64,000 bases of DNA from Meiothermus ruber DSM 1279 (GTDB taxonomy: Bacteria; Deinococcota; Deinococci; Deinococcales; Thermaceae). The notes under the pieces were generated by a model. That model was given only the letters and a program-made list of their open reading frames with translations. It did not search any database and was not told where the DNA came from. This document shows, in pieces, positions 1 through 16,637 of the stretch. A program made the translations under genes and the position numbers. The DNA is taken from assembly GCF_000024425.1 (NCBI RefSeq), contig NC_013946.1, positions 1,922,001-1,986,000 of the forward strand, given 5' to 3'. Numbering within the stretch: the stretch's first letter is position 1; each line of letters begins with the position of its first letter.

Positions 1-1930
1 TGCTTCCCGAGGTTGCGCCTTCGGCGCGCACCTCATAGGTGCGGGTGCCGCTCGAGGGCGGTGGAACGTTCAAGCTCCACAACCCGTTGGCATCGGCGCT
101 GACCCGCCCCAGGCTGGCCCCGTCCTCAAAAACCTCCACGGTCTGGCCCGGCTGGGCCGTACCCTGGAGGGTAAAACCGGTGGCCGAAACCGTGGCCCCA
201 TCCACAGGCGCGATAAAGGTGGGTTCGACCGGGGGCGTGGCGGTCACGCGGACGCTGGCCCCGGTCATCTGCCCGGGGCGGCGGGCCTCGTAGGTGTGTG
301 CACCGGCGGTCAGGGCCGAGACCGGGAGCGCAAAGCTCCAGCGCCCATCGGAGCCTACCGTTACAGCGCCAAGGGCCGCGCCGTTGTCGAAGAGCTCGAG
401 GGTCTCCCCTGGCTGGCCAGCCCCCTGCAGGGTATAGCTGCCCACTGCCAGGGTCGAACCGTCCGCCGGTGCGGTGATGGTTACAGCCGCTGCCGCCGGG
501 GGCAGGCCCGCGCTGAAGGCCCGCAGGCCCAGTCCAGGCAGAACCGAGAGCAGGCCCAGCAGGGCCATCGCCCCCACCAGCATCCCCGCCGCAGGCAGGC
601 CCGTTCGCGTCGCGGGGGCCATCAGGGCCTGGGTGAGGCCCATCGGGGCCGCCGCTACCGGAACCCCCGGCGCTTCCGAGCTGCCATACTGGGCCAGGGC
701 CGCCTCGGCCTCGCGGTCTTCGGCTTCCTGGGCCGGCGTGGGCTGGCTGAAAATCAGGAAGAAGACCCGGAGGTAGTAGTAAGCGCCAATGGCCGAGGTG
801 ACCAGGGCCAGCACCACCAGTCCGTAGAACCCGGCCCGGGCCGCCTCCTGGAAGACCAGGTACTTGGCCCAGAACCCGGCCAGCGGGGGCAGCCCCAGCA
901 CCGAAAGAATGCCCAGCCCCAGGGCCCCGCCCAGCAGGGGCTTGCGGTACCACAGGCCCCGCAGGCGCTCGAGCGGTACATCCTGGTTGGAGAGCATCGA
1001 GAGCACCGCAAAGATCAGGCCCGTAGCCAGGCCGTAGGTCAGCAGATAGAACGGGATGGTGGCCTGCCCGGTGGGGCCAAACAGCCCCAGGCCGATGTAG
1101 CCCGCATTGGCGATGGAGGAGTAAGCAAAAAGCCGCTTGGCTTCAGTCTGAGACAGAGCTCCCAGATTCCCAAACAGGGTGCTGAGGGCAATCAGGGCAG
1201 CCATCCCGACCCCCCAGGCTTCCAGGCCTTCAGGGGTAAAGATGCGCAGCATGGCCGCAAAAGCCGCCGCCTTGACCGCCGTGGCCATAAAGAGGGTGAC
1301 CACCGTAGGGCTCCCCTGGTAAACGTCCGGCGACCACCACTGGAAGGGCACCATGGCGGTCTTGAAGGCAAACGCCGCCATAATCAGCAACAACCCAGCC
1401 ACGTAGAGCGGCCCCGAGCCGGTCGCACCCACCATAAAGCTGCCGGTTGCCCCAAAGTACAGGGCGATGCCATAGAGAAAGATGGCCGCCCCCAGCGCCC
1501 CCAGCAGGAAGTATTTCAGGCCCGCTTCAAAACCTTTCTCATCGCGCTGCCAGGTGGCCAGTACGTACAGCGGCAGCGAGAAAACCTCCAAGGCAATCAC
1601 CAGCACCACCAGGTTGGGGCTGCTGGCCATGACGTGCATACCGGTCACCGCAAACAGCACCAGCAAGGGGTATTCAAATTTCTTAGCAGGCCCCAGCAAA
1701 AGCGCCCACAACCCACCCAGAATGGCTACCAGGGTCAGGCCCCGGGCCAGGGTATCGAAGCGGTAGAGGCCCCCAAAGGCCTCCACGGTCTGGCCCCAGC
1801 CCACCAGAGAGAACAAACCCGCCAACAGCAGCGCCGCCACGGTCACGATGCGGTTGGCCTCGCGGGAGATGAGGAAGGCCAGCAGCGACAGCACGGTGGC
1901 GAAGCCTGCCAGCAAGTACAAAGTCAGCAT
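1..1930 (-). CDS. nuoN: NADH-quinone oxidoreductase subunit N with C-terminal Ig-like repeats (partial, runs off left edge)
   Basis: Antiporter-like membrane subunit of complex I, a proton-translocating arm protein in the cytoplasmic membrane. The ATG at 1930 opens a reading frame I followed without a stop to base 2. Residues 1 to about 475 are the usual hydrophobic NuoN core. From about residue 480 the protein continues past the last predicted helix into two tandem repeats of about 88 residues, starting near residues 483 and 570. Each begins with a TITAPADG / TFIAPVDG-type segment, followed by TLQGxGQPG, VxxxDGxxxG and W(S/L)xxxP, the pattern of bacterial Ig-like domains. Thermus NuoN is about 427 residues and, as far as I know, lacks these. 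It is the last gene of the nuo operon, 52 bases after nuoM. The C-terminus is unknown because the window ends. Confidence 0.93.
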   Translation of the reverse strand, partial: MLTLYLLAGFATVLSLLAFLISREANRIVTVAALLLAGLFSLVGWGQTVEAFGGLYRFDTLARGLTLVAILGGLWALLLGPAKKFEYPLLVLFAVTGMHVMASSPNLVVLVIALEVFSLPLYVLATWQRDEKGFEAGLKYFLLGALGAAIFLYGIALYFGATGSFMVGATGSGPLYVAGLLLIMAAFAFKTAMVPFQWWSPDVYQGSPTVVTLFMATAVKAAAFAAMLRIFTPEGLEAWGVGMAALIALSTLFGNLGALSQTEAKRLFAYSSIANAGYIGLGLFGPTGQATIPFYLLTYGLATGLIFAVLSMLSNQDVPLERLRGLWYRKPLLGGALGLGILSVLGLPPLAGFWAKYLVFQEAARAGFYGLVVLALVTSAIGAYYYLRVFFLIFSQPTPAQEAEDREAEAALAQYGSSEAPGVPVAAAPMGLTQALMAPATRTGLPAAGMLVGAMALLGLLSVLPGLGLRAFSAGLPPAAAAVTITAPADGSTLAVGSYTLQGAGQPGETLELFDNGAALGAVTVGSDGRWSFALPVSALTAGAHTYEARRPGQMTGASVRVTATPPVEPTFIAPVDGATVSATGFTLQGTAQPGQTVEVFEDGASLGRVSADANGLWSLNVPPPSSGTRTYEVRAEGATSGS

Positions 1931-1982: not shown

Positions 1983-3404
1983 TCATGAAGCACCTCCAAA
2001 GAGCGCCGCAAGGGCCTTACCGAGAGGCTCGAGGTAGACCGTAAAAAGCTTTGGATAAAGGCCCATCAGAAGCAGCACCCCCACCGTAACAGCCGCAAAA
2101 CCCCACTCACGGGTGTCCATATCGGGCACAGCCTGGGCCTGGGGGGTTTCCTGGAAAAGCTTCTGAAAGGCCGTGAGCGCATAGGCCGCCGCCGCAATCA
2201 CCGCCAGGAACGCCAGGAAGGTCAGCCAGGGCGAGACCTTGTAGGCCCCCAGCAACACCATCAGCTCGCCGGGGAAGCCCGAGAGCCCCGGTAGCCCGAT
2301 CATGGCCATCAGCAAGAACATGCCCAGCACATAGAGCGCCGGGGTGTGCCTGGCCAGACCACGCACCGGAAGGATGTCCAGGCTGCCGGTGCGCTTGTAC
2401 ACCAGACCCACAAACAGGAACATAGCGGAACCATAAATCATTGAAGCGCCCAGCAGGTACAGCGCCCCTACAGTGCCCTCCATGTTGCCGCTAAAGAGCC
2501 CCAGGGCTGCAACGCCCATGTGGGAAACCCCGGCATAGGCCAGCAAGGTTTTCCAGTCGGGCGCGCTGAAGGCCAGCCAGGCGGCGTACAACGCCCCAAA
2601 AGCGGCCAGGAAGAGCAGCAAGCCCTGCCACTCCTTGAAGCCCTCGGGCATCAGGGGAATGGCCCACTTGAACAGGGCAAAGACACCCACCTTGTACAGG
2701 GTGCCCATAGCATCGGCCAGGCCGGAGGGGTGGTTTTGTTGGTGGAAGCTAGGCAGCCAGGCATGCAGCGGGAAGAGCGGCGTTTTGACAGCCAGGGCAA
2801 CTAAAAAGCCCAGAAAGGCCAGGACCGCGGCCTGCCCGGTCAGGGGATGGGCCACCAGGTCGGTATAGAGGAAGCTTTCGGCCCCGCCCAGGTAGCGCAC
2901 CGCGAAGATGGCAGCCAGCATGGGCAGCGAGCCCACCAGGGTAAACAGCGCAAAGATGTAGATGGCTTTTAGGCGCTCCGCCCCCCCGTAAAACCACAGC
3001 ATCAAGAGCGCCGGGATCAGCGTGGCCTCGAAGAAGGCATAGAAAAAGATCAGATCCTGGGCTGCAAAAATGCCCAACAAACCGGTCTGCATCATCAGAG
3101 CCAGGGCCAGGAAGCGCACCGGTACCTCGGCAATCCATACACCCAAAAGCACCACCAGGCCCACTGCAATCCACAACAGCAAACCGGCCCCATCCAGCCC
3201 CACCGCATAGTAGACCCCCACCTCGGGCAGGAAGGGGGTCTGGCTGGCATAGGCCACCCCCTGGCCCCCGTAGCCGGCAAACAGCGCCACCGCGATCGCC
3301 AGGCTCACCGCCGCCGAGACGATAGCGAAGGTGCGGCCCAGGCTCGGCAACATAAAGAGCGACAAACCTGCCAGGAGGGGTAACCACAGTCCCACATGAA
3401 TCAT
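1983..3404 (-). CDS. nuoM: NADH-quinone oxidoreductase subunit M
   Basis: Antiporter-like membrane subunit of complex I, 473 residues, about the length of Thermus Nqo13. It carries the family's conserved proton-channel segments: a [15 protein letters not shown] stretch with the channel glutamate near residue 127, and [20 protein letters not shown] near residue 210 with the lysine and the TPxFPLHxWLP signature. It is almost entirely hydrophobic with about 14 predicted membrane helices. The ATG at 3404 overlaps the nuoL stop (ATGA), so translation is probably coupled. No anomaly is visible. Confidence 0.97.
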
Positions 3405-5233
3405 CGCAACACCCCCCAGCCCACCAACAGCACCAGGGCTACCAGAAGCCCGGCCAGATAAAAGCGTAAAGACCCGGTCTCGAGCCTCGCCAGCAGGCTC
3501 CCCAGCCCGCCTACCAGGTTACCCAGGCCAGCAAAACCCGCCAGCAGACCCTTATCACCCCCGAATAAAAGCTCCGCTAGCCCTTTGGCCGGATTCACCA
3601 AGAGGGTGTTGTACAGGGCATCGGCATAGAAGCCTTGCAAAGCCGCCGCCTGGAAGCGCTCGTACCAGGCCGGCATCTTCTGCTGGAAAAAGCGGAAGCC
3701 CCACCACAAAGCGGCAATCGCCACCACCGCCGAGGTGAGGATGAGTACCCACTCGGTGAGCACCGGCAGCTTCTCGTGGGGAAACTCTCCGATGGCTTTG
3801 GTCAGGAAAGGTTCGATAAAGTTCTTGTAATCAATCACATACGGCAACCCCATAAAGCCCACACCAATGGCACCACCCATCAGGATGTGGTTGGGCCAGA
3901 GCATCACCGCCGGGCTTTCGTGGGGGTGTTCTTTGCCCCGGTACTCGCCCCAGAAGACCAGCACATACCAGCGAATCGAGTAGAGGGCAGCCAACACCGA
4001 GGCCAGCAGCATCAGGAACCACAGCCAGGGGCCATACTCGAAGGAGTAGGCCAGGATGGCGTCTTTCGACCAGAAGCCTGCCAGCGGCACCAGACCGCCC
4101 GAGGCGAAGGTGGCGATTAGGCCGTGCAGATGGGTGGCGGGCAGGTACTTGCGCATACCGCCCATCTTGCGCACGTCCTGCTCGCCCCCCAGGGCGTGAA
4201 TCACCGAGCCCGAGGTCATGAACATCAGGGCTTTGAAGAAAGCATGGGTCACGATGTGGAAGATGGCCACCCAGTAGGCCCCCACCCCCACCGCCACGAA
4301 CATGAAGCCGAGCTGCGAAAGGGTCGTGTAGGCCACGATGCGCTTGATGTCCCACTGGCCCAGCGAGCACAGCGCCCCGTAAAAGGCCGTCAAGAGGCCG
4401 ATGAAAACGATCAGACCCGACAGGTAAGCGTCGTCGTGCAGCATGAAGGCGTGCCGCACCAGCAGGTAAACCCCCGCCGTGACCATGGTGGCCGCGTGAA
4501 TCAGGGCCGATACCGGGGTGGGGCCGGCCATGGCGTCGGGCAGCCAGACCATCAGGGGCACCTGGGCGCTCTTGCCCATGGCCCCTACCAGCAGGAAGAA
4601 GCCGGCCAGCGTAAGGGTGGTAAAGCTATACCCCCCAGCCTCCACCTTCTCGGCCAGCTCGCTGATCGAGAGGGTGCCGAACATGCTCCAGAGCAGGCCC
4701 ATGGCCAGCAGGAAGCCCAGGTCACCGATGCGGTTGACGATAAAGGCTTTACGGGCCGAGTCGACGTTAATCCGTTCGTGGTACCAGAAGCCGATCAGCA
4801 GGTACGAGGCCAGCCCCACCCCCTCCCAGCCGATGAAGACCACCGGCAGGCTGTCGCCCAGGATGAGCACCAGCATGGCCGCAATGAACAGGTTGAAGTA
4901 GCTAAAGAAGCGGCTGTAACCGGGGTCGCCGTGCATGTAGCCGATGGCCCAGACGTGGATTAGGAAACCCACCCCAGTCACCACCATCAGCATCACGCCC
5001 GAGAGGTTGTCGAGGTTGAGGCTGAAAGGGATGCCTGGCAGCCAGTCCGGGAGCGCCCAGCGCCCCCCCCCCTGCAGCAGCAAGACCAGGCCCAAAAGGA
5101 AGCTGCCCAGCACCAGCAAGGAGGCCAGCCAGCCCGCTGCCGGCTCGCCAATTCGCTTACCAAAAAGTCCCAGAAGCACGAACCCCAGGAGGGGCAGTGC
5201 GATAATCAGGGGTAGAAGAAAGGTCTCTTGCAC
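3401..5233 (-). CDS. nuoL: NADH-quinone oxidoreductase subunit L
   Basis: Largest antiporter-like membrane subunit of complex I, 610 residues, close to Thermus Nqo12. The conserved core is clear: [17 protein letters not shown] near residue 135, [34 protein letters not shown] near 220-255 (read in two parts), and a C-terminal hydrophobic tail consistent with the long lateral helix and its anchor. About 16 membrane helices are expected. It starts 3 bases after the nuoK stop and overlaps nuoM by 4 bases. Its role is proton translocation driven by quinone reduction in the peripheral arm. Confidence 0.97.
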
Positions 5234-5236
5234 GTT

Positions 5237-5527
5237 TTACCCCCTCAGTTGCCTTAGCTCATCTACGCTGGTGGTCTCGCGGCGGCGGAAGATGGCCACA
5301 ATCAGACCAAGGCCCACCGCCACCTCGGCGGCGGCAATGGCGATGATGAAAAGCACCACCACCTGGGCCTCCAGGCTCCCGGTGAGCTTGGAGAAACTGA
5401 TGAGCGAGAGCGCAGCGGCGTTGAGCATCAGTTCGATGGACAAAAACATCAGGATGGCGGTGCGCCGGGTCAAGGCACCGTAAGCACCAATTGAAAACAG
5501 CAGGGCCGAAGCCACAAGCCAGATCAT
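5237..5527 (-). CDS. nuoK: NADH-quinone oxidoreductase subunit K
   Basis: Small complex I membrane subunit, 96 residues with three helices, matching the family size. The family segment MFLSIELMLNAAALSLISFS contains the conserved buried glutamate (about residue 32), and FIIAIAAAEVAVGLGLIVAIFRR near residues 62-84 carries the second one. The ATG at 5527 overlaps the end of nuoJ by 4 bases (ATGA), giving coupled translation. Confidence 0.97.
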   Translation of the reverse strand: MIWLVASALLFSIGAYGALTRRTAILMFLSIELMLNAAALSLISFSKLTGSLEAQVVVLFIIAIAAAEVAVGLGLIVAIFRRRETTSVDELRQLRG

Positions 5528-6123
5528 CGCTTGACCACCGCCTTCTCATCTTTTTGCTGCCCGGCGGAAGGGCTGGGCTTTTGATCCTGTCGGAGGTGGG
5601 CCGGGTGACTGGTGGCCGCGACAATCCGCTCGGGTTCAATCAGCACCACCGCTGCCACCGTGGCCACCAGCAGCAAGAAGCCCACCACCAGCAAAGCATA
5701 GAGCCACTTCTCGGGATCGTAGAGCAGGGGCCCCAGGGCCTGGGGCAGGCCGCCCCCCAGGGCCGGCGTGCCGGCAGGCGGCTGAAAGCGGGTTACAGCG
5801 TAGGTCAGCACGCCGGCCAGACCCAGCGCCCCAAGCGCGGCCACCCAGCCCAGCCGGGGCAGCAAGTCCTGGCCCACGTTGGCGCTGGCCGCCGAGAGCA
5901 GCATGATGACGAACAGAAAGAGCACTACGATGGCCCCGGCGTAGACAATGATCTGGATCATAGCCACAAAGCGGGCCTCGAGCGCCACGTACACACCCGC
6001 CACCACCAGGAAATTGGCGATGAGCGCCAGGGCGGCGTGCACGGCGTTTTGCAGCCGCACCACGGCCAGGCCGGTACCGACCAGCACAAGCAGCGCAAGG
6101 ACTTCCCAAAATCCGATACTCAT
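5524..6123 (-). CDS. nuoJ: NADH-quinone oxidoreductase subunit J
   Basis: Complex I membrane subunit of 199 residues. The conserved third helix with VYAGAIVVLFLFVIMLL near residue 60 (the pi-bulge helix in known structures) identifies the family. Five membrane helices are expected. The protein is some 20 residues longer than Thermus Nqo10 because of a charged, proline- and lysine-rich tail after about residue 165. The start at 6123 is supported by a GGAGG about 5 bases upstream. A 124-base gap with a hairpin separates it from nuoI. Confidence 0.96.
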   Translation of the reverse strand: MSIGFWEVLALLVLVGTGLAVVRLQNAVHAALALIANFLVVAGVYVALEARFVAMIQIIVYAGAIVVLFLFVIMLLSAASANVGQDLLPRLGWVAALGALGLAGVLTYAVTRFQPPAGTPALGGGLPQALGPLLYDPEKWLYALLVVGFLLLVATVAAVVLIEPERIVAATSHPAHLRQDQKPSPSAGQQKDEKAVVKR

Positions 6124-6190
6124 TGATTCCTCCAGAGAGCCAGGGGTGGGCTCGAGCCTTTAGGGTCGCACATAATCCGAGCGATTTTAC

Positions 6191-6211
6191 CCCCAACAAT
6201 GTGTGTTGGGG
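6191..6211 (-). repeat. Hairpin in the nuoI-nuoJ intergenic gap
   Basis: Perfect 8-bp inverted repeat, CCCCAACA and TGTTGGGG, around a 5-base loop, in the only sizeable gap of the 3' half of the nuo operon. No run of T follows on the transcribed (minus) strand, so it does not look like an ordinary terminator. It could be an mRNA processing or stabilising stem. The same gap holds two CTCGAG hexamers and no open reading frame. Confidence 0.6.
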
Positions 6212-6247
6212 AACACCTGCCTTTTGGACTCGAGCCTCCGGTCTGCC

Positions 6248-6781
6248 CTACTTGGGCGGCTTAAAGCCCTCGAGTTCGGGTCGCACGTAGGGCAGGCTGT
6301 AACCCCGCTTGACCGGCTTGCCCGTGTAGGCCGCCTCACGGCGCTGGGGCTTGGTGCCCTCCACCTCGACCAGCATGTCCTCCTTGCCGTAGACAAAGTC
6401 GGAGTAGCGGTAGTCGGCCATCTCGAAGTCGTAGCCCATCACCACCGCGCCGGTGGGGCAGGCCTCCTCGCACATCCCGCAGAAGATGCAGCGCAGCATG
6501 TTGATCTCGTAGACCCTGGCGTACCGCTCCCCTGCGCTGACGGGGTTATTGGGGTCGTTCTCGGCGGCTTCTACGTAGATGGCGTAGGCCGGGCAGGCCG
6601 CCGCACAGAGCGAGCAGCCGATGCACTTCTCAAGGCCGTTGGGATGCCGGGTCAGCACGTGTCGCCCGTGGAAACGGGGCTTCAGGGGCACCGGGGCATC
6701 CGGATAGGGAATGGTCACCGGTTTGGAAAACAGCGCCTTCAGGGTTATCCCCATGCTTTGCGCCAGTGCAGCAATGCTCAC
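6248..6781 (-). CDS. nuoI: NADH-quinone oxidoreductase subunit I (ferredoxin-like)
   Basis: Peripheral complex I subunit carrying two [4Fe-4S] clusters (N6a, N6b) that hand electrons towards N2. With a GTG start at 6781 the protein has 177 residues, and the ligands fall at Cys53, 56, 59, 63 and Cys98, 101, 104, 108, the same numbers I recall for Thermus Nqo9. An AAGGAG lies about 7 bases before the GTG; the open frame extends further upstream but without family sequence, so I prefer this start. It begins 23 bases after the nuoH stop. Confidence 0.96.
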
Positions 6782-6804
6782 AGGTTCACTCCTTTCAATC
6801 GAGA

Positions 6805-8058
6805 CTAATCGCCCGCACCCATGCGCGGCATGGCCCGGGGCTTGGGTTTGGCCGTCAGAATCACATAGGCCGAGAAGACCACCAGGCTGAGCAAGGAAAG
6901 CCAGCCCAGCACCGCAACCGGCCACTTGAAGGCCACCACCAGCGCCGACAGCAGGAACCAGGCCAGGGCCAGCGGGAAGAGGCGGCCCCAGCTAAAGACC
7001 ATGAGCTGGTCGTAGCGCAGGCGGAAGAGCGTACCCCGCACCCAGATAAAGAAGAACAGGAACAGCGCGATTTTGACGAACATCCAGAGGTACGGGAGGG
7101 CGAACAGGCCCCCGATGAGGGGGATCTGCTCCATGAAGCCGGGCATCCGCCAGCCTCCCAAAAAGATCGTGGGAATCAGGGCCGAGGCGGTAATCAGGTG
7201 GATGTACTCGGCCATCTGGAACAGGGCCCACTTGATGGAGCTGTACTCGGTGTTATACCCCCCCACCAGTTCCTGCTCGGCCTCGGGCAGGTCGAAGGGC
7301 GTGCGGGCCGCTTCGGCCATGCTGGTCAGCAGGAAGATGGCGAAAGCCGGGAGCATGTAGAGAATCAGCCAGCCGTTTTGGTGTTGCCACTCGACAATTT
7401 CTCGCAGGTTCAGGGAGCCCACCAGCAGGACCGGGGCCAGCAGGCTGATGCCCAGGGCCAGCTCGTAGGAGATGAGCGAGGCCGAAGAGCGCAGCGAGCC
7501 CAGCAGGGAGTACTTGGAGTTGGAGGCCCAGCCCGCCAGAAAGATACCGTAGATGGCGATCTCCGAGACCGCGAAGACGTAGAGCAGGCCCACATCCAGG
7601 TCAATCACCCAGGGGTCGTAGCCAAAGAAGGCGTCCTTGGGGCCAAAGGGAATCAGGCCGAAGGTGAGCACCGCGAAGGTGACGGAGATCATGGGGGCCA
7701 GGACGAAGACCACTTTGTCAGCCCTGGCCACCACCAGGTCTTCCTTGAAGATGGACTTGATGGCATCGGCCAGGGGTTGCAGCAGGCCCGTGGGCCCCAC
7801 CCGGTTGGGCCCCTGGCGGATCTGGATACGGGCCAGCAGGCGGCGCTCAATCAGGGTCATGTAGGCAAAGGCGGTCAGCAGTCCGAAGATGACCAGAAAG
7901 GCCTTGATCCCCACCATCCACAAGGGATCGGTGGCGCTCGAGCTGGCCGCGGGGGTGGCCTCGGCGGCCACGGCCAGGCCAGCCAGGAGCGGTGCACCAA
8001 AAGCCAGGCGCGTCTGGAGGCACCCCAGGCGCGGGTGCTTCTGTTGGGTCTGGTTCAT
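6805..8058 (-). CDS. nuoH: NADH-quinone oxidoreductase subunit H with extended N-terminus
   Basis: Membrane subunit that forms the quinone cavity and joins the two arms of complex I. The 417 residues include [19 protein letters not shown] near residue 80, an [20 protein letters not shown] loop near 262-281 and [15 protein letters not shown] just after, all hallmarks of the family. The ATG at 8058 overlaps the nuoG stop (ATGA) and has AGGAGGT 5 bases upstream. About 40 residues precede the usual N-terminus; they contain a basic start, a hydrophobic run and an AVAAEA segment, resembling a signal peptide. Thermus Nqo8 is 365 residues and begins close to the WMVG segment (residue 47 here). Confidence 0.96.
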
Positions 8059-10421
8059 GCGGCACCTCCTACCAGAATTTTGGCCTCCAGGCTGCGGCCC
8101 GCCCAGGCCCCCAGCGCCGGCACGTACATCACACCATCGGGCAACCCTACCACGGTTCTGACCTCGAGGCGCTCCCTTCCACCGGGCAGCTCGATCTCTA
8201 CCCAGTACCCATCGGCCAGGCCCTGGGCGCGGGCCGTGGCCGGACTCATCTCCAGCCTGAGTTCGATCGCCTGGGCCACCGCCCCCACCACCTGCTCCCG
8301 CCGCCACATGGTGGGGCGCAGGTAGAGGGCTCCCTGGGTGGCATCGGCCTCGGAGGCGGCCCAGCCGGTACCTTTGGGCAGCCAGCGCTCGAGCGCCGCC
8401 GGCAGTTTGTGCTTTTCGACCAACAGGCGGGTGGCCTGGCGCACCAGCCGCACCGGGGTTTTGACCCCCAAAGCCTCGGCCAGCACCGCCAGCGCCGCCA
8501 CCGCCCCGTCGGCTTCGCCGTTGTTGATGGCCACGGGCTCCAAAGGCAGCACCCGGCCTTCGAGGTTCAGGGTATGGCCGCGCTTTTCGTAGGGCGTCTG
8601 GTTGGGCAAAATCACGTCGGCGTACCGCTCAGCCAGCGGGTGCCGGTGCGTGAGGTGCAGGATGCGGAAAGAAGCCGCCTTGAGCTGGGCCTCGGTGGGC
8701 AGGTAGGCATAGTAAACCGCCCTGGGCCCGGCCTCCGTCCAGCCCGCACCCCCTTTGCCGGGGAAGAAGCCCAGGGCCTCCAAGCCCCGCGCGTTGGCCG
8801 CCGGGGTCATGCACATCACCTTGGCGCCGGTGCGCTCGGCGAGCTGCCGGGCCTTGAGGGCCGCCTGGGGCTGGTTGAGCACCCCCGCCCCCAGCACCAG
8901 CACCACCCGCTGGCTCTTCGCCAGGCGCTCCTTGACCCAGTCCACCGCCTCGGCCAGGCCCGCTGGGGCCTCGCCCTGGTTCAGCAAGGCCGCCAGCAGG
9001 GCCGCCTCGGCCCCTGGGGCATGCACGCCGCTGGCCCCGGCCCACTTGGCAGTGTTGCTGGGGTAGGCGCTGAAGAGGGCCAGCTTATGGGTCAGGCGGG
9101 GCATCCGCTCCTTGATGTTGAGGTCGGCAAAGGGGGTGCCGTGGTTCAGCCGGGCCGCCGGTTTGAGGCCGCGGCTGTACTCCGAAAGCCTGAGGTGCAG
9201 GGTGGGGGCCTCCTCGGTGGGCTCGCCCAGGATCAGCACGAACTCGGCATCCAGCAGCTCGTCGAAGCTGGCCGGGGTGAACCCCGTCACCGGGTAGGCG
9301 GTGCGGCCCTGGAAGTCGCGGTGCGGCGTGCCCAGGGCCTGGGTGAGCTCGAGGGCCGCCAGGCCCTCCTCGAGGGTGCTGCTGCCCGCCAGGTACACGC
9401 CGATGTCCGCTTTGGCCACGCCGCTCAAGCCCTTGCGGATGGCCTCGAGGGCCTCCTCCCAGTTGGTCTCAACCAGTTGGCCGTTCTTGCGTACCAAAGG
9501 AACGCGCACCCGGTTCTCGTTCACCCATTCGTGGCCGAAGCGGGCCGCATCGGAGATCCAGACCTCGTTCACCTCGCGGCGCTCGGCAGCCCGGATGCGC
9601 TCGAGGAGACCGCTGCGGGTGTCCACCGTGATGGCCGCCCCGCAGGCGTCGTCCATCGAGGTGGTCTCGGTGGCGTCGTACTCCCAGTTGCGGGCCCTGA
9701 AGCGCGCGGTTCGGTCGAGCAGGGCCCCCACCGGGCAGATATCCACGATGTTGCCGGTGAAGTTGGAGGGCAGGCCGTCGTCCTCGCTGTTGATGAAGGT
9801 GTGCACCCCCCGCTCGATAAAGTCCAGCACTTCGTCGCCCGGAATCTCCTCGAAGTAGCGCACGCAGCGCTTGCAGTGGATGCAGCGCTCGCGGTCGAGC
9901 ACGATGAAGGGCGAGAGCGGATGGTGCTTGTCCACGTGCCGCCGGGTCATCTCGAAGCGGGTGTACATGGGCAGCTCCATGGGGTCGGGCTGGTAGAACT
10001 TCTCCACCAGGCCGTACTCGTAGCTGCGATCCTGTAGCTCACAGGCCCCGCCCTTGTCGCAGGTGGGGCAGTCGAGCGGGTGGTTGAGCAGGGTCAGCTC
10101 CACCATGCCCGACTGGGCGTGCTTCACCTCGTCGGAGAGGGTGTCCACCACCATCCCGTCGGTTACCGCGGTGATGCAGGCCGCCGCCAGCTTGGGCATC
10201 CAGAAAATTTTGGGCTGCCCATCCTCCATGATGAAGTTGCCGTCCGGCCCTTTGCGCGGGCTGCCGGTCCTAACCAGGCACATCCGGCAGGCCCCGATGG
10301 GCGACAGGTGCTTCTCAGCGCAGAACAGCGGCACATCGTAGCCAGCGTGGAAGATGGCATCCATCACCGAGGTGCCGTTCGGTACCTCTATGGTTCTGTC
10401 GTTAATGGTTACCTTGGCCAT
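8055..10421 (-). CDS. nuoG: NADH-quinone oxidoreductase subunit G, N7 cluster ligands missing
   Basis: Large iron-sulfur subunit of complex I, 788 residues (Thermus Nqo3 is 783). The ligands for N1b (Cys34, 45, 48, 82), N5 (His114, Cys118, 121, 127) and N4 (Cys180, 183, 186, 229) are all present, each one residue before the Thermus number or identical to it. At the positions of the Thermus N7 ligands (256, 259, 263, 291) this protein has Ser255, Asp258, Ala262 and Ser290, so this off-pathway cluster should be absent. The rest is the molybdopterin-oxidoreductase-like domain found in all NuoG. It starts 8 bases after nuoF and its stop overlaps the nuoH start. Confidence 0.97.
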
Positions 10422-10429
10422 TCCCTACC

Positions 10430-11746
10430 TCACCCCCAGCGGCTCCCCAGGCGCTCGACCGGCCTGCCCTGTTCTACAGCTTCCACAAACTGGTGGCGGA
10501 AGTGCTTGAGGCTGCCACGCACCGGCCAGCAGGCCGCATCGGCCAGCGCACAGAAGCTGCGGCCCTCGATCTGGTCGAGCATGCTCTCCAAAAGCTCCAC
10601 ATCGCCTTTCTGGCCCTGTCCGGTTCCGATCTTCTCGAACAGGCTCACCATCCAGCCCGAAACCCCCTCGCGGCAGGGGGTGCATTTGCCGCAGGACTCG
10701 TGGCCGTAGAAGCGGGTTATGTTCCACATAGCATCCACCATGCTCATGCTGGCCGGGATGCCGATCACCCCCCCGGTGCCCAGCAGCGAGCCCTTGGCGC
10801 TGATGGACTCGTAGTCCATGGGGGTATCGAGGATTTCGTCGTTCCAGGGCAAAGGCGGGCAGGAAGAGCCCCCCGGAATAATGGCCTGGATGGGCTCGGT
10901 GGGGCCCCCGGCCCAGTCGAAGAGCAGCTCGCGGAAGGTGGTGCCCAGGGGCAGCTCGTACACGCCGGGGCGCTTGAAGGGGCCCGAGACCTGGAAGAGC
11001 TTGTGGCCCTTGGACTTTTCGGTGCCCATGCTGGCGAACCAGTCGGCCCCGCGCTCGATGATGTGCACCACCGAGCAGAGCGACTCCACGTTGTTGATGG
11101 TGGTGGGCATCCCCCACAGGCCGGCCTGGGCCGGGAAGGGGGGCTTCATGCGGGGGTTGGCCCGCAGGCCCTCGAGGGAGTTCATCAGGGCGGTCTCCTC
11201 ACCGCAGATGTAGGCCCCGGCCCCCCGGTGCACATACAGGTCGAAGCTAAAGCCGGTGCCCATCACATTCTGACCCAGGTAACCCGCCGCATAGGCCTCG
11301 CGAATCGCCGCGATAAGCCGGTCGTAGGCCCGGCGGTACTCGCCGCGGATGTAGATGTAGCCCTTGCTGGCCTGGATCGCCACCCCCGCAATCATCATGC
11401 CCTCGATAAGCTGATGGGGGTCGTCTTCCATCAGGTAGCGGTCTTTGAAGGAGCCCGGCTCCGACTCGTCGGCGTTGCAGACGATGTAGTGCTGCTTGCC
11501 GGTGTTTCTGGGCATGAAGCTCCACTTGAGCCCGGTGGGGAAGCCCGCCCCACCGCGCCCGCGCAAGCCGGACTTCTTGACCTCCTCGATCACCCAGTCC
11601 TGGCCCTGGGCGATGGCCTTGCGGATGGCCTGGTAGCCGCCGTGGGCCAGGTAATAGCTGAGCGTCCAGGAGTTGGGCTGGCCCACGTGTTTGTAGAGGG
11701 TCTTCTCGAAACGGGGGTCTTTCCCGCTCACGATGGGGCCGGTCAT
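10430..11746 (-). CDS. nuoF: NADH-quinone oxidoreductase subunit F
   Basis: NADH-oxidising subunit of complex I that binds FMN and cluster N3, 438 residues, the same as Thermus Nqo1. [13 protein letters not shown] near residue 65 and [13 protein letters not shown] near 93 belong to the NADH/FMN fold; [12 protein letters not shown] near 350 supplies three N3 ligands and the Cys in [12 protein letters not shown] near 397 the fourth. The ATG at 11746 overlaps the nuoE stop. The frame is open further upstream, but that part lies inside nuoE and is not conserved. Confidence 0.97.
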
Positions 11747-12294
11747 GCGCCCACCTCCTCCCCACGCACGTGCACCTCGTGCCCCACCTTGCCGGGTAGG
11801 GCGATCTCCTCGAGCTTCTTCCCTTCCCGCAGGCCCTGCAAAAGCGCGTGCAGCCGGGCCTTGGTCACGCACTCCACATAGGGCTCGTCGTTGACCTGGA
11901 TCACCGGCGCGGTGTGGCAGGAGCCCAGGCACTCCACCTTCTGAATGCTGAAGAGCCCGTCAGGGGTCACCTCCCCGCGCAGGATGCCCAGCGTCTCGAC
12001 CAGCTCATCCCACAGCTCGTCGGCCCCGCCAATGGCGCAGCTCAGGGTGGCGCACACCTGCAGGTGGTACTTGCCGGTGGGCAGGGCCTGGTAGTAGCTG
12101 TAAAAGCTCATCACGCCCGCAACCTCGGTCGCGGTGATGCCTAAGATTCGGGCGATCTCCTCCTGGCGCTCAGGGGAGATCCAGCCCTCGTCCTGCTGTA
12201 CCCGCCGCAGCATGGGCATGAGGGCCGCCCGTCGGTCGGGGTACTGCGCGAATACCTCGTTTAACCAGTCTTGCTTATCGTCGAAAAATCCCAT
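11743..12294 (-). CDS. nuoE: NADH-quinone oxidoreductase subunit E
   Basis: Thioredoxin-fold [2Fe-2S] subunit carrying cluster N1a beside NuoF. The 183 residues have the four ligands Cys81, Cys86, Cys122 and Cys126 in CATLSC and CLGSC. The ATG at 12294 follows GGAGG by 3 bases; an upstream extension of the frame has no family sequence. It lies 50 bases after nuoD and overlaps nuoF by 4 bases. Confidence 0.97.
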
Positions 12295-12344
12295 ACGCCT
12301 CCGCATCATCGGGGGCCTAGACTCGCCAGACCCCCGCGAAAAAC

Positions 12345-13592
12345 TCACCGATCCACGTCCCCCATCACCGGGTCCAAGGATGCGATTACCACCACCATGT
12401 CGGCCATCTGCACGCCCTTGCAAGCATAGGGCAGGCTTTGCAGGTTCACAAAGCTGGGCGCCCGCACCTTGACCCGGTAGGGCATGGAACCCCCGTCGGA
12501 AACGATGTAGTAACCGAGCTCACCCCGCGCGCTCTCGGTGGGCACGTAGACCTCACCCAGGGCCGGGTGGAAGCCCTCGGTGACCAGCTTGAAGTGGTAG
12601 ATTACCGCCTCCATCGAGGTCTCCAGCAGGTGGCGTGGTGGCAGCGAGATCTGCGGGTTGGGGTCGCGGATGGGGCCTGGCCCGAGGGCCTCGAGCCGCT
12701 CCACGGCCTGCCGGATGATCTTGACCGACTCGCGCATCTCGAGGATGCGGATCACCATCCGGTCAAAGACATCGCCCCCGGTCAGCACCGGGACGTCGAA
12801 GTCGTAGGTCTCGTAGCCCGCGTAGGGATAAGCCTTGCGCACATCGTAGTTGACCCCCGAGGCCCGCAGGCTGCCCCCGGTAAGGGAAAGGTTGATGGCC
12901 ACCTCGGGGGGGATCACCGCCACACCGCGGGCGCGCTCGTAAAAGATGGGGCTTTCCCGGAACAAAGCCTCGTACTCGTCGATCCGGGCCGGCATCTGCG
13001 CGATGAACTTCTTCACCTCGCCCAGAAACTCCGGCGGCAGGTCTTCCTTGAGGCCGCCAATCCGGATGTAGTTATGGTGGAAGCGCTGCCCCGAGACCCA
13101 TTCGAAGAGGTCGAGCACCGCCTCGCGCTCGCGGAAGGCGTAGAAGAACGGCGTCAGCGCACCAAAGTCCAGCAGGCCCGTCCCCAGGAAGACCAGGTGC
13201 GAGGCGATGCGGGACAGCTCGTTGAGCATCACCCGGATGGCCTGGGCCCTGGGGGGCACCTGGGCCCCCACCAGCTTTTCCACGCTCAGGGCGTAGGCCA
13301 GGTCGTGGCTAAAGCTGTGCAGGTAGTCCATGCGGGGGGTGTAGGTGATGCACTGCGTGTAGGTGCGGTGCTCCATGTTCTTCTCGAAGCCGGTGTGAAG
13401 GTAGCCGATGTGGGGGGTCAGGCGCAGAATCTGCTCCCCTGAGAGATCCACCACCACCCGCAGCACCCCGTGGGTTGAGGGGTGCTGGGGCCCCACGTTG
13501 AGGGTCATGACCTCGGATTTCAGCTCCGGCGCATCGGCGATATCGTAGGCCTCCACCGAGGGGCTGTGTAGCTTTTGCGGGTCGCGCACCAT
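12345..13592 (-). CDS. nuoD: NADH-quinone oxidoreductase subunit D
   Basis: The 49-kDa-type subunit that lines the quinone site next to cluster N2, 415 residues. It shows the conserved [14 protein letters not shown] near residue 32, with the quinone-site histidine, [18 protein letters not shown] near 61-78 and the C-terminal DPVMGDVDR ending typical of the family. Its start overlaps the nuoC stop by one base (TGATG). Confidence 0.98.
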
Positions 13593-14221
13593 CAGTTGCC
13601 TCCCTTCACAACCTTCTGCACCTCAGCGGCCACATCCTGGTAACCCTTGCGGGTACCCCCCCGCCAGCCGGTCATGCCGCCTTTATCGCCGGACAGGCCG
13701 GCCCGGAAAGCGTCGGGATCAATGAAGCGGCCCTCCTTGAACAAAGTGGGGGTCTCGCCCAGGGGGAAGTCCTTGCGCAGGGGGTGGCCTTCCAGGTCTT
13801 CGGGGGTCAGGATTTTGCGCAGGTCGGGGTGGCCCTCGAAGCGGATGCCCAGCAGGTCGAAGACCTCGCGCTCGAGGTAGTCAGCCCCCATCCATAGATC
13901 GGTCAGACTGGGCAGGCTGGGGTTGGCCTCGGGCACATACACCCGGATGAAGACCCGGCTGCCATCGCCCCCCTGGTAGCCCGGCAACGAAACCAGCTCA
14001 TAAACCACGCAGAAACGCTCCGGTTTGGGTTGGGGGTATTTCAGGTAGTCAATGCCCACCACGTCGGCCAGGTAGTTCCAACCCTGGCTTTTGAGCTGGG
14101 TCAGCAAGGCCTTGAACTCGCCGCGGGGCACCACCACCCAGGTGTTGCCGTGGGCCTCCTCGATGGCCCAACCGTTGGCTTGAGCCTGTTTTTTTAGCTC
14201 GGTCAGCTTTTGCATGTCCAC
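13592..14221 (-). CDS. nuoC: NADH-quinone oxidoreductase subunit C
   Basis: The 30-kDa-type peripheral subunit of complex I, 209 residues from the GTG at 14221 or 207 from the in-frame ATG at 14215; Thermus Nqo5 has 207, so the ATG is possible although its GAGGTG sits only 3 bases away. [14 protein letters not shown] near residue 58 and the signature [20 protein letters not shown] near 115, followed by [13 protein letters not shown], identify it. It has no cofactor. It lies 10 bases after nuoB. Confidence 0.96.
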
Positions 14222-14231
14222 CTCGAGCGCC

Positions 14232-14771
<540 letters not shown>

Positions 14772-14803
14772 TCAAAACCCCCTTTGTCTTCGGGCTGGGC
14801 CCA

Positions 14804-15163
14804 CTAGTGCCATTTCATCACGCCCTTGTACCACTCGTACAAAAACCCCACGAACAACAAAAGCGTGAAGGCCAGCAGGCCGAAAAAGCCCACCACACCC
14901 ACGGTACCGGCGCTCACCGCGTAGGGCCACAAAAAGGCCACCTCCACATCGAAGATGATGAACAGCATCGCCACCGCGTAGAAGTGCACCGGGAAGCGCT
15001 TGACCTCCCCGGCGGGGTCGTTGCCCGACTCGTAGGGCATCAACTTGAAACGACCGCCCTTTTTAGGGCCCAGCAGGGCCCCCACCACGGTTGCCAGCAC
15101 GGCAATGCCGACGGCAACAGCCAAGTACACCAGCAGAGCCTGATACTCACTAATCGGTGACAT
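14804..15163 (-). CDS. nuoA: NADH-quinone oxidoreductase subunit A
   Basis: First gene of the nuo operon: a 119-residue, three-helix membrane subunit, the same length as Thermus Nqo7. The loop with the quinone-proximal cysteine is replaced by a [15 protein letters not shown] segment that keeps the conserved YESG motif. [21 protein letters not shown] near residue 77-97 is the conserved second helix (split here for length: FPVHFYAV then [18 protein letters not shown]). The ATG at 15163 has GAGGAGG upstream. About 250 bases separate it from the next gene; that space must hold the operon promoter, but I see no unambiguous -35/-10 pair. Confidence 0.97.
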
Positions 15164-15371
15164 GCGCCTCCTCTTAACTTAGGGTGGTCGAGCTTGTGCC
15201 CATCTTCACGAGGCCTGGTAAAGCCCGCACTGCCCGACCGACTGTCGCCAACATCTTACACTTCCACCTTCCCGACGCAACCAGGTTGTTACTTAGAAGA
15301 TAGTTTGGAACAAGGGCAAACATTGTAGAAAAATCTACCGTGCCCCGGCCAGCCAATGGCCCAAAGCATTG

Positions 15372-15416: not shown

Positions 15417-16556
15417 TTAGTAGCGCTTATCCACCAGCGGCGGCCCTTCCAGGGCGGGGTCGGCCTGAATCTCGTCCAGGCGGATGCCGGTGGCCTGCTG
15501 CAAGGCCGGGCCAAGCTGGGGCGGCACCGCCTCGGCCTTGATGCGCAGGGTGAGCTTGTCGGTGCCCCCTTCTTTGGTTTCCACCACCAGTTGGGCACCG
15601 CCGCGGGGGTCAATGCCAAAGGCCATCAGCAGGGGAGCCAGTTCGGTGGGGTAGAGCTTGACCCCCTTCACCTTGACCATCAGGTCGGTGCGCCCAATCA
15701 CCCCCCTGGGCAGGCAGAGCCGCCCCTCAGGGCGCAATACCACCGCCAGATCGCCGGTGCGGAAGCGGATCATGGGCATCAGGGTGCGCGAGAGCGAGGT
15801 CACCACCATCTCCCCTTTTTCGCCCTCCGGGGTGGGCTCGAGGGTCTCGGGGTCGAGCACCTCGATAATGGCCATCTCGGGGATTTCCCACAGCCCGTTT
15901 TTTTCCAGCCCCTCCCCGGCCACCACCCCCAGCTCCGAGGTGCCGTAGGCGTCAACCGCAACCCCGCCAATGGCCTGCTCGAGCTTCTCGCGGTAGCCCG
16001 GCACCGAGGTAAAGGGTTCGCCACCGGCCATCAAAAGCTCAAACCGGCCCCCGGCCTGGGCAATCTTCATGGCAAAGCTGGGGTTAGCGACCAGAATCTC
16101 GAAACCGTACTGCTGCTGTAGCTGCACGATGCGCTCGGCCTCGCCGGGGCCATGCGGCAAAACCATCGCACCGGCCCGTTGCAGGGCCTCGTGAAACAGC
16201 CAGCCGCCGGCAAAAATGTGGTAGCCAAAAGCCACCAGGGCTTTCTTGCCGGCCACCCCCAGGCGCTGCATCTGGGCCGATAAAGCCTGGGCCTGGTACT
16301 CCACATCCTCGGCGGAGAGGTACTCGGGCATCCAGCCGATGGCCGGGCTCGGGGTCAGGTGCATCAGGGCTGCGCCTTTGGGGGGCTGGGGGTTCGACTG
16401 GATATAGGCCAGCCACTCCTGCCGGGTGGTGAGGGGCAGGCTGGCAATACGCTCAGGGGTCAGGCTCTGGACGTCTACATTGCTGAGTTTTTGGGCGTAA
16501 ACGGGGTGCTTTTGCGCAGCAGCAACCACGGTGCGAAGGCGTTGGACTCGATCCAT
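15417..16556 (-). CDS. PaaK-like AMP-forming acyl-CoA ligase/adenylyltransferase
   Basis: 379-residue member of the adenylate-forming family related to phenylacetate-CoA ligase and coenzyme F390 synthetase. The order of motifs fits: PLTTRQEWLAYIQSN near residue 41, VDAYGTSELG near 200 (acceptor motif), RFRTGDLAVV near 263 with the ATP-ribose-binding aspartate, and GRTDLMVKVKGVKLYPTEL near 287. A small C-terminal ACT-like lid follows. It is some 50 residues shorter than typical PaaK, so the acid it activates cannot be named. The ATG at 16556 has GGAG 8 bases upstream. It is oriented with nuo but separated from it by about 250 bases. Confidence 0.8.
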   Translation of the reverse strand: MDRVQRLRTVVAAAQKHPVYAQKLSNVDVQSLTPERIASLPLTTRQEWLAYIQSNPQPPKGAALMHLTPSPAIGWMPEYLSAEDVEYQAQALSAQMQRLGVAGKKALVAFGYHIFAGGWLFHEALQRAGAMVLPHGPGEAERIVQLQQQYGFEILVANPSFAMKIAQAGGRFELLMAGGEPFTSVPGYREKLEQAIGGVAVDAYGTSELGVVAGEGLEKNGLWEIPEMAIIEVLDPETLEPTPEGEKGEMVVTSLSRTLMPMIRFRTGDLAVVLRPEGRLCLPRGVIGRTDLMVKVKGVKLYPTELAPLLMAFGIDPRGGAQLVVETKEGGTDKLTLRIKAEAVPPQLGPALQQATGIRLDEIQADPALEGPPLVDKRY

Positions 16557-16637
16557 AGCAGGGCTCCTTTTCTGTACGCACCGATTATACGGCTTACCAC
16601 ACCCTGCAGTCGGCCCCAGCTAAGGTTGTCGGGAAAT

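Follow-up and report, generated by a model that had tools for sequence, protein, structure and literature searches.

The NuoN subunit of Meiothermus complex I continues into a conserved, probably periplasmic tail of Ig-like domains

The common view of bacterial complex I is that its core membrane subunits suffice, and we know of no large periplasmic domain in its known structures. The antiporter-like subunits of this enzyme are built from 14 conserved transmembrane (TM) helices (PMC7434922, PMC10212512), and the closest known counterpart of the protein considered here is Nqo14 of Thermus thermophilus (4HEA/4HE8; family TIGR01770), a NuoN of 427 residues that ends after TM14. Meiothermus NuoN is like it over the whole membrane core, in the 14 helices, in the pump residues, and in being encoded by the last nuo gene. 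It is unlike it in two respects: the loop between TM13 and TM14 is about 40 residues shorter in Thermus, and the Meiothermus protein adds about 270 residues, i.e., three Ig-like domains, which we call Ig1, Ig2 and X.

Three other described or recognizable systems bear on this addition. Ig1 and Ig2 match the Big_6 and Big_7 families and the Ca_tandemer repeat NF033510 above the curated cut-offs, but NF033510 is named for an adhesin, whereas the Meiothermus repeats sit on a proton-pumping subunit and are only two. Closest to Ig2 and X are helix-anchored envelope proteins of 305–400 residues with the order Ig-Ig-X, in some cases followed by LysM, which share with NuoN the domain order, a cysteine pair, and the position of X at the distal end; in these proteins a single-helix anchor takes the place of NuoN, and the terminal LysM of the members from the sister genus g2 is absent from NuoN. 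Finally, the periplasm of the Deinococcota is large and is bridged by multidomain connector proteins that attach to peptidoglycan, such as SlpA, which links the outer membrane to the cell wall (PMC9388160). SlpA is thus a precedent in the phylum for a peptidoglycan-bound multidomain connector, a likeness drawn from architecture, and it differs in consisting of an outer-membrane beta barrel, a coiled coil, and an SLH domain.

The window, i.e., the whole stretch of 64,000 nucleotides that was analysed (G000:C1:1922001-1986000), comes from the complete, 3.10 Mb genome of Meiothermus ruber DSM 1279. Its features, with those that continue beyond the left edge, are the following:

1..1930, frame on to window position -313, minus strand: nuoN, 747 aa in all
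737..1930, minus strand: NuoN core, aa 1-398, TM1-TM13 (TIGR01770 E 4e-92; 4he8_N E 7e-111)
599..736, minus strand: lineage-specific cytoplasmic TM13-TM14 loop, aa 399-444 (alignment A2, topology)
506..598, minus strand: TM14 and exit to the periplasm, aa 445-475 (alignment, AlphaFold model, topology)
227..490, minus strand: Ig1, Big-type Ig-like repeat, aa 481-568 (Big_7 at 483-549; tree)
1..226, end just past the window edge, minus strand: Ig2, Big-type Ig-like repeat, aa 569-651 (Big_6 at 578-640; tree)
wholly beyond the left window edge (L002:9690-9977), minus strand: domain X, aa 652-747, Cys-paired and predicted Ig-like
1983..15178, minus strand: remaining nuo operon, nuoM back to nuoA (context)
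15420..16580, minus strand: PaaK-like gene, just upstream of nuoA

A sequence-only reading of this DNA had proposed that the nuoN frame, starting at 1930 on the minus strand, runs without a stop to the left edge and is fused to Ig-like repeats, and both the frame and the domain matches confirm it. Extended leftward, as that reading had suggested, the contig gives a TAG stop 313 bases beyond the edge and a total of 747 codons. The two repeats that had been recognized after the last helix are indeed of the Big type, but the count of two was rejected, as a third domain, X, lies past the window edge. A stop-free run of 267 codons has a chance expectation of about 0.6% from the base composition at this G+C, and for this reason the openness of the frame is modest evidence by itself; on sequence grounds, it is homology and conservation, more than the open frame, that bear out the reality of the fusion.

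Residues 1-398 are a NuoN. Proton_antipo_M is matched at E 4e-56, with 191 bits against a cut-off of 21.5, and the gene follows nuoM as the last of the nuo operon. TIGR01770 gives 309.5 bits over residues 6-400, a score under its curated cut-off of 332.6, and the scores of all Thermaceae NuoN proteins listed also fall under this cut-off. The residues of the proton pump, namely E115 in TM5 and K190, K220, and K356 in TM7, TM8, and TM12, are invariant in alignment A2. After residue 398 come a cytoplasmic loop of 46 residues, TM14, a short proline/alanine-rich linker, Ig1, Ig2, and the 96 residues of X. The loop is acidic and well conserved in the genus, with the pieces AEDREAEAA...GSSEAPG...LMAPA. 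Just left of the window, a gene convergent with nuoN (L002:7729-9510) encodes a lipoprotein-like product with RCC1-like repeats, as judged by eye, and an N-terminal part that looks Ig-like; no Rfam match was found within 20 kb around.

The two repeats score well above the Pfam cut-offs in searches with the whole protein (Big_7 E 5e-11, 43.5 bits vs 24.1; Big_6 E 6e-11, 43.0 bits vs 27.6), each family matching two stretches, and NF033510 matches the tail alone at E 5e-16. Residues 651-747, which comprise domain X, have no match in Pfam or NCBIfam, any Pfam Ig family included, and X shows weak profile similarity to the Ig repeats (5e-5 to 5e-7). Modelled alone, it is predicted to be a seven-stranded beta sandwich of the Ig-like type with a pLDDT of 90, so X is best described as a predicted Ig-like domain. 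The full-length AlphaFold model of the M. hypogaeus orthologue, built from nine sequences, has a membrane part of low confidence, and only its tail was used; there, three beta domains follow one another over residues 481-751, which are modelled with confidence (block means 70-91). By fold, X matches the SIAE beta domain and glycosidase accessory domains, with Z up to 10, and also the HPI protein of Deinococcus; these matches are generic for Ig-like folds and point to no particular function. NuoN of the window has two cysteines, both in X, and the pair is kept in all X homologues examined, be they on NuoN, on the separate paralogs, or on the LysM protein. Neither LysM, nor SLH, nor OmpA, nor another proven wall-binding domain was found in the NuoN tail.

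The known orientation of NuoN agrees with a C-terminus in the periplasm, and several features of the Meiothermus protein point the same way. Hydropathy, the AlphaFold secondary structure, and the alignment with Thermus NuoN all give 14 helices, with TM14 aligned to its Thermus counterpart, which places both ends of the protein on one side of the membrane. Lysine and arginine are biased toward the loops after odd helices (14, vs 4 after even helices and at the ends; binomial p 0.03), and this bias, taken with the even number of helices, argues for the periplasm as that side; the cysteine pair and the helix-anchored homologues of the tail agree with it. Homology and computed topology thus support a periplasmic tail. 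The domains had earlier been placed outside the cell, and the extracytoplasmic part of that statement holds by the helix count, the charge bias, and the helix-anchored and LysM-bearing homologues, although the periplasm is the more exact location. That the tail would instead be cytoplasmic, with an odd number of helices in NuoN, is hardly credible: it can appeal to the low confidence of the modelled membrane part and to a topology that was derived from homology and charge, but it has against it the TM14 alignment, the charge bias, and the homologues of the tail, which come after one N-terminal helix and in g2 also bear LysM.

The fusion is widespread in the genus. Among 18 Meiothermus-level genomes, Ig1-Ig2-X is present on NuoN in 14, Ig2-X in one (G010, with one Ig repeat and X), the tail has been lost in two (G017 and G021), and in one (G019) nuoN is interrupted by a contig end. 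The frame is thus open in 13 genomes besides that of the window, in frames of 745-782 residues, with M. hypogaeus, M. luteus, M. granaticius, and M. rufus among the carriers. A frameshift or an assembly join, which had been flagged near base 480 as what might undo the fusion, is ruled out by this intact conservation across the 14 genomes and by a tail dN/dS well below 1. In G017 and G021, Ig2 and X are gone from NuoN proteins that are 97 and 95% identical, respectively, to that of the window, which indicates that the tail is dispensable in some species and not essential everywhere. In G021, the place of the lost tail is occupied by a repeat of about 120 bases with dozens of copies in that genome, and in G017 the shortened frame ends with TAG, followed by a hairpin of the same kind as in the window's genome. 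The G021 repeat (L074:3822-3942, contig G021:C12) is MITE-like, and has few and weak copies in the M. ruber genome.

Outside the genus, the sister genera g2 and g3, with two genomes each, have a NuoN with a single Ig repeat, and in the Thermus-like g4 and in g5 NuoN stops after TM14. NuoN-family matches occur in 111 of 111 genomes of the phylum, and among these a tail-like match on NuoN is confined to Meiothermus, g2, and g3; a scan of the genome contigs with domain X gave matches in Thermaceae only. In the open-access literature searched, no paper was found that describes a NuoN with Ig-like domains or one extended C-terminally into the periplasm, and the NuoN-Ig combination is absent from the solved structures searched. 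NuoN and Big-type Ig repeats, taken separately, are both known.

The tail is under purifying selection, and X is its most conserved part. In pairwise Nei-Gojobori comparisons, the core has a dN/dS of 0.03-0.11 and Ig1, Ig2, and X of 0.06-0.26 in seven of eight pairs, the pair G007/G018 having been excluded as too similar to measure. Invariant columns across 13 orthologs amount to 64% of the core, 50% of X, 36% of Ig2, and 24% of Ig1; with X ahead of the repeats, the tail seems to do its work at its distal end, and the repeats look like spacers. The absence of one repeat in G010 suits such spacers.

Where the module may have come from is suggested by its relatives. Eight Meiothermus-level genomes encode a separate protein of 305-316 residues that begins with a short segment and a single helix and goes on with two Ig domains and X. 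It is 45-53% identical to the NuoN tail, with 46-53% for matches that cover almost all of the tail, and has the same Ig2-X order; the tail lacks the single N-terminal helix of these paralogs, NuoN itself being the anchor. The g2 homologue (G001 and G002; 389-400 residues, stop to stop) has the same order and adds a C-terminal LysM (E 7.5e-13; L072). In all these helix-anchored relatives, X is distal to the anchor. In g2, a single strand carries in direct succession, from upstream to downstream, this gene, a PaaK-like gene, and nuoA; in the window the PaaK-nuoA arrangement is kept with no Ig gene there, and nuoN is the only carrier of Big_6 in that genome. Linkage of a separate Ig gene to the nuo operon was seen in g2 only, and not in the g1, g3, g4, or g5 genomes examined. 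The PaaK-like gene precedes nuoA, with both on the same strand, in the M. ruber genome, in three of the five further Meiothermus genomes inspected, and in each of the four genomes of g2 and g3; in the g4 and g5 genomes inspected, none was found near nuoA.

The Meiothermus paralog is located elsewhere, behind a gene for a coiled-coil/helix-hairpin-helix protein, and a more distant family (L131) has a gene for a small protein with a helix, a coiled coil, and a helix-hairpin-helix, followed by one for a helix-anchored Ig-repeat-LysM protein. Such a two-gene set, a helix-anchored coiled-coil protein and then an Ig-repeat protein that is likewise anchored by a helix and in some cases bears LysM, recurs in the Deinococcota (L131:3137-4817, L064:5743-8922, and L072:5883-7348, with the helix-hairpin-helix in two of the three). 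X also forms the C-terminus of a DUF937 protein with a predicted helix in a different family of the phylum (G055, L057:550-1788). In the tree of Ig domains, the Ig2 domains of NuoN form one clade (97/94) beside the Ig2 of the paralogs, and the NuoN Ig1 domains of Meiothermus, g2, and g3 fall outside this group, which suggests two captures, that of Ig1 before the split of the three genera and that of Ig2-X in Meiothermus. From trees and architecture, we infer that NuoN acquired the module in steps and that the donor was a helix-anchored envelope protein of these bacteria, the direction being suggested by the wider spread of the envelope family.

What the tail does can be approached from this pattern. 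As the repeats vary in number and sequence, X is conserved and distal, and either NuoN or a lone helix serves as the anchor, a spacer with a binding head is the simplest reading, and most likely the tail would act as a spacer rod that presents X to a periplasmic target, be it peptidoglycan or a partner protein. Ig1 and Ig2 would be spacers of variable number that keep X off the membrane; X would bind peptidoglycan, a wall-linked polymer, or a wall-associated protein; this binding would tether complex I to the envelope, with no change expected in proton pumping itself. The occurrence of X on both NuoN and non-respiratory envelope proteins argues for an envelope target over a respiratory one, and the terminal LysM of the g2 homologue points to the wall or to something attached to it. 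The best explanation as a whole, to which we give a probability of roughly 0.45, is that a conserved periplasmic Ig1-Ig2-X module, captured stepwise, tethers complex I to the envelope. The sequence-only reading had offered three roles, namely anchoring to the envelope, docking of a partner, and stabilization of a supercomplex; anchoring has the best circumstantial support of the three, from the helix-anchored and LysM-bearing relatives and from the operon linkage in g2, with docking and stabilization as possible alternatives. Its label of "adhesive-type" domains reflects their Ig fold and no more.

The strongest of the rival explanations takes the tail as a docking or stabilizing module, which would bind another respiratory complex, a periplasmic electron carrier, or the neighbours of NuoN within complex I, or would cap the periplasmic face of NuoN. 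In its favour are the protein contacts that Ig-like domains often make, the strong conservation of X, and one current model in which NuoN/NuoM must be kept dry on the periplasmic side (PMC10212512). We consider it rather unlikely, however, as X also occurs on helix-anchored and DUF937-type non-respiratory proteins, so that a target specific to complex I is improbable, and as the closely similar Thermus enzyme does without a tail. Less likely still is a nearly neutral add-on of domain shuffling, tolerated and of little function. That G021 and G017 lost the tail and G010 one repeat, that the Ig repeats evolve faster than the core, and that the sister genera have a single repeat would all suit it, but a dN/dS far below 1, long retention across the genus, and the invariance of the cysteine pair and of the motifs of X speak against it. 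It is very improbable that the tail is cut off, or that the fused frame is not translated through, with a mature NuoN ending near residue 475: the proline/alanine-rich linker at residues 474-480 might be a plausible cleavage site, yet none of the 14 genomes has a frameshift, a consensus scan found no promoter- or terminator-like site at the junction, and cleavage would cost the tail its anchor.

For Meiothermus, the tethering reading would mean that a pump subunit of complex I itself fixes the enzyme physically to the cell wall or to a different layer of the envelope, a proposal that we advance quite tentatively; anchoring of the respiratory chain in this way is, to our knowledge, known in no other bacterium. 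In any case, a conserved periplasmic rod on NuoN offers a handle on the question of whether respiratory complexes may be held, docked, or organized from the periplasmic side, and the natural gains in Meiothermus, the partial versions in the sister genera and in G010, and the losses in G021 and G017 permit this to be approached by comparison.
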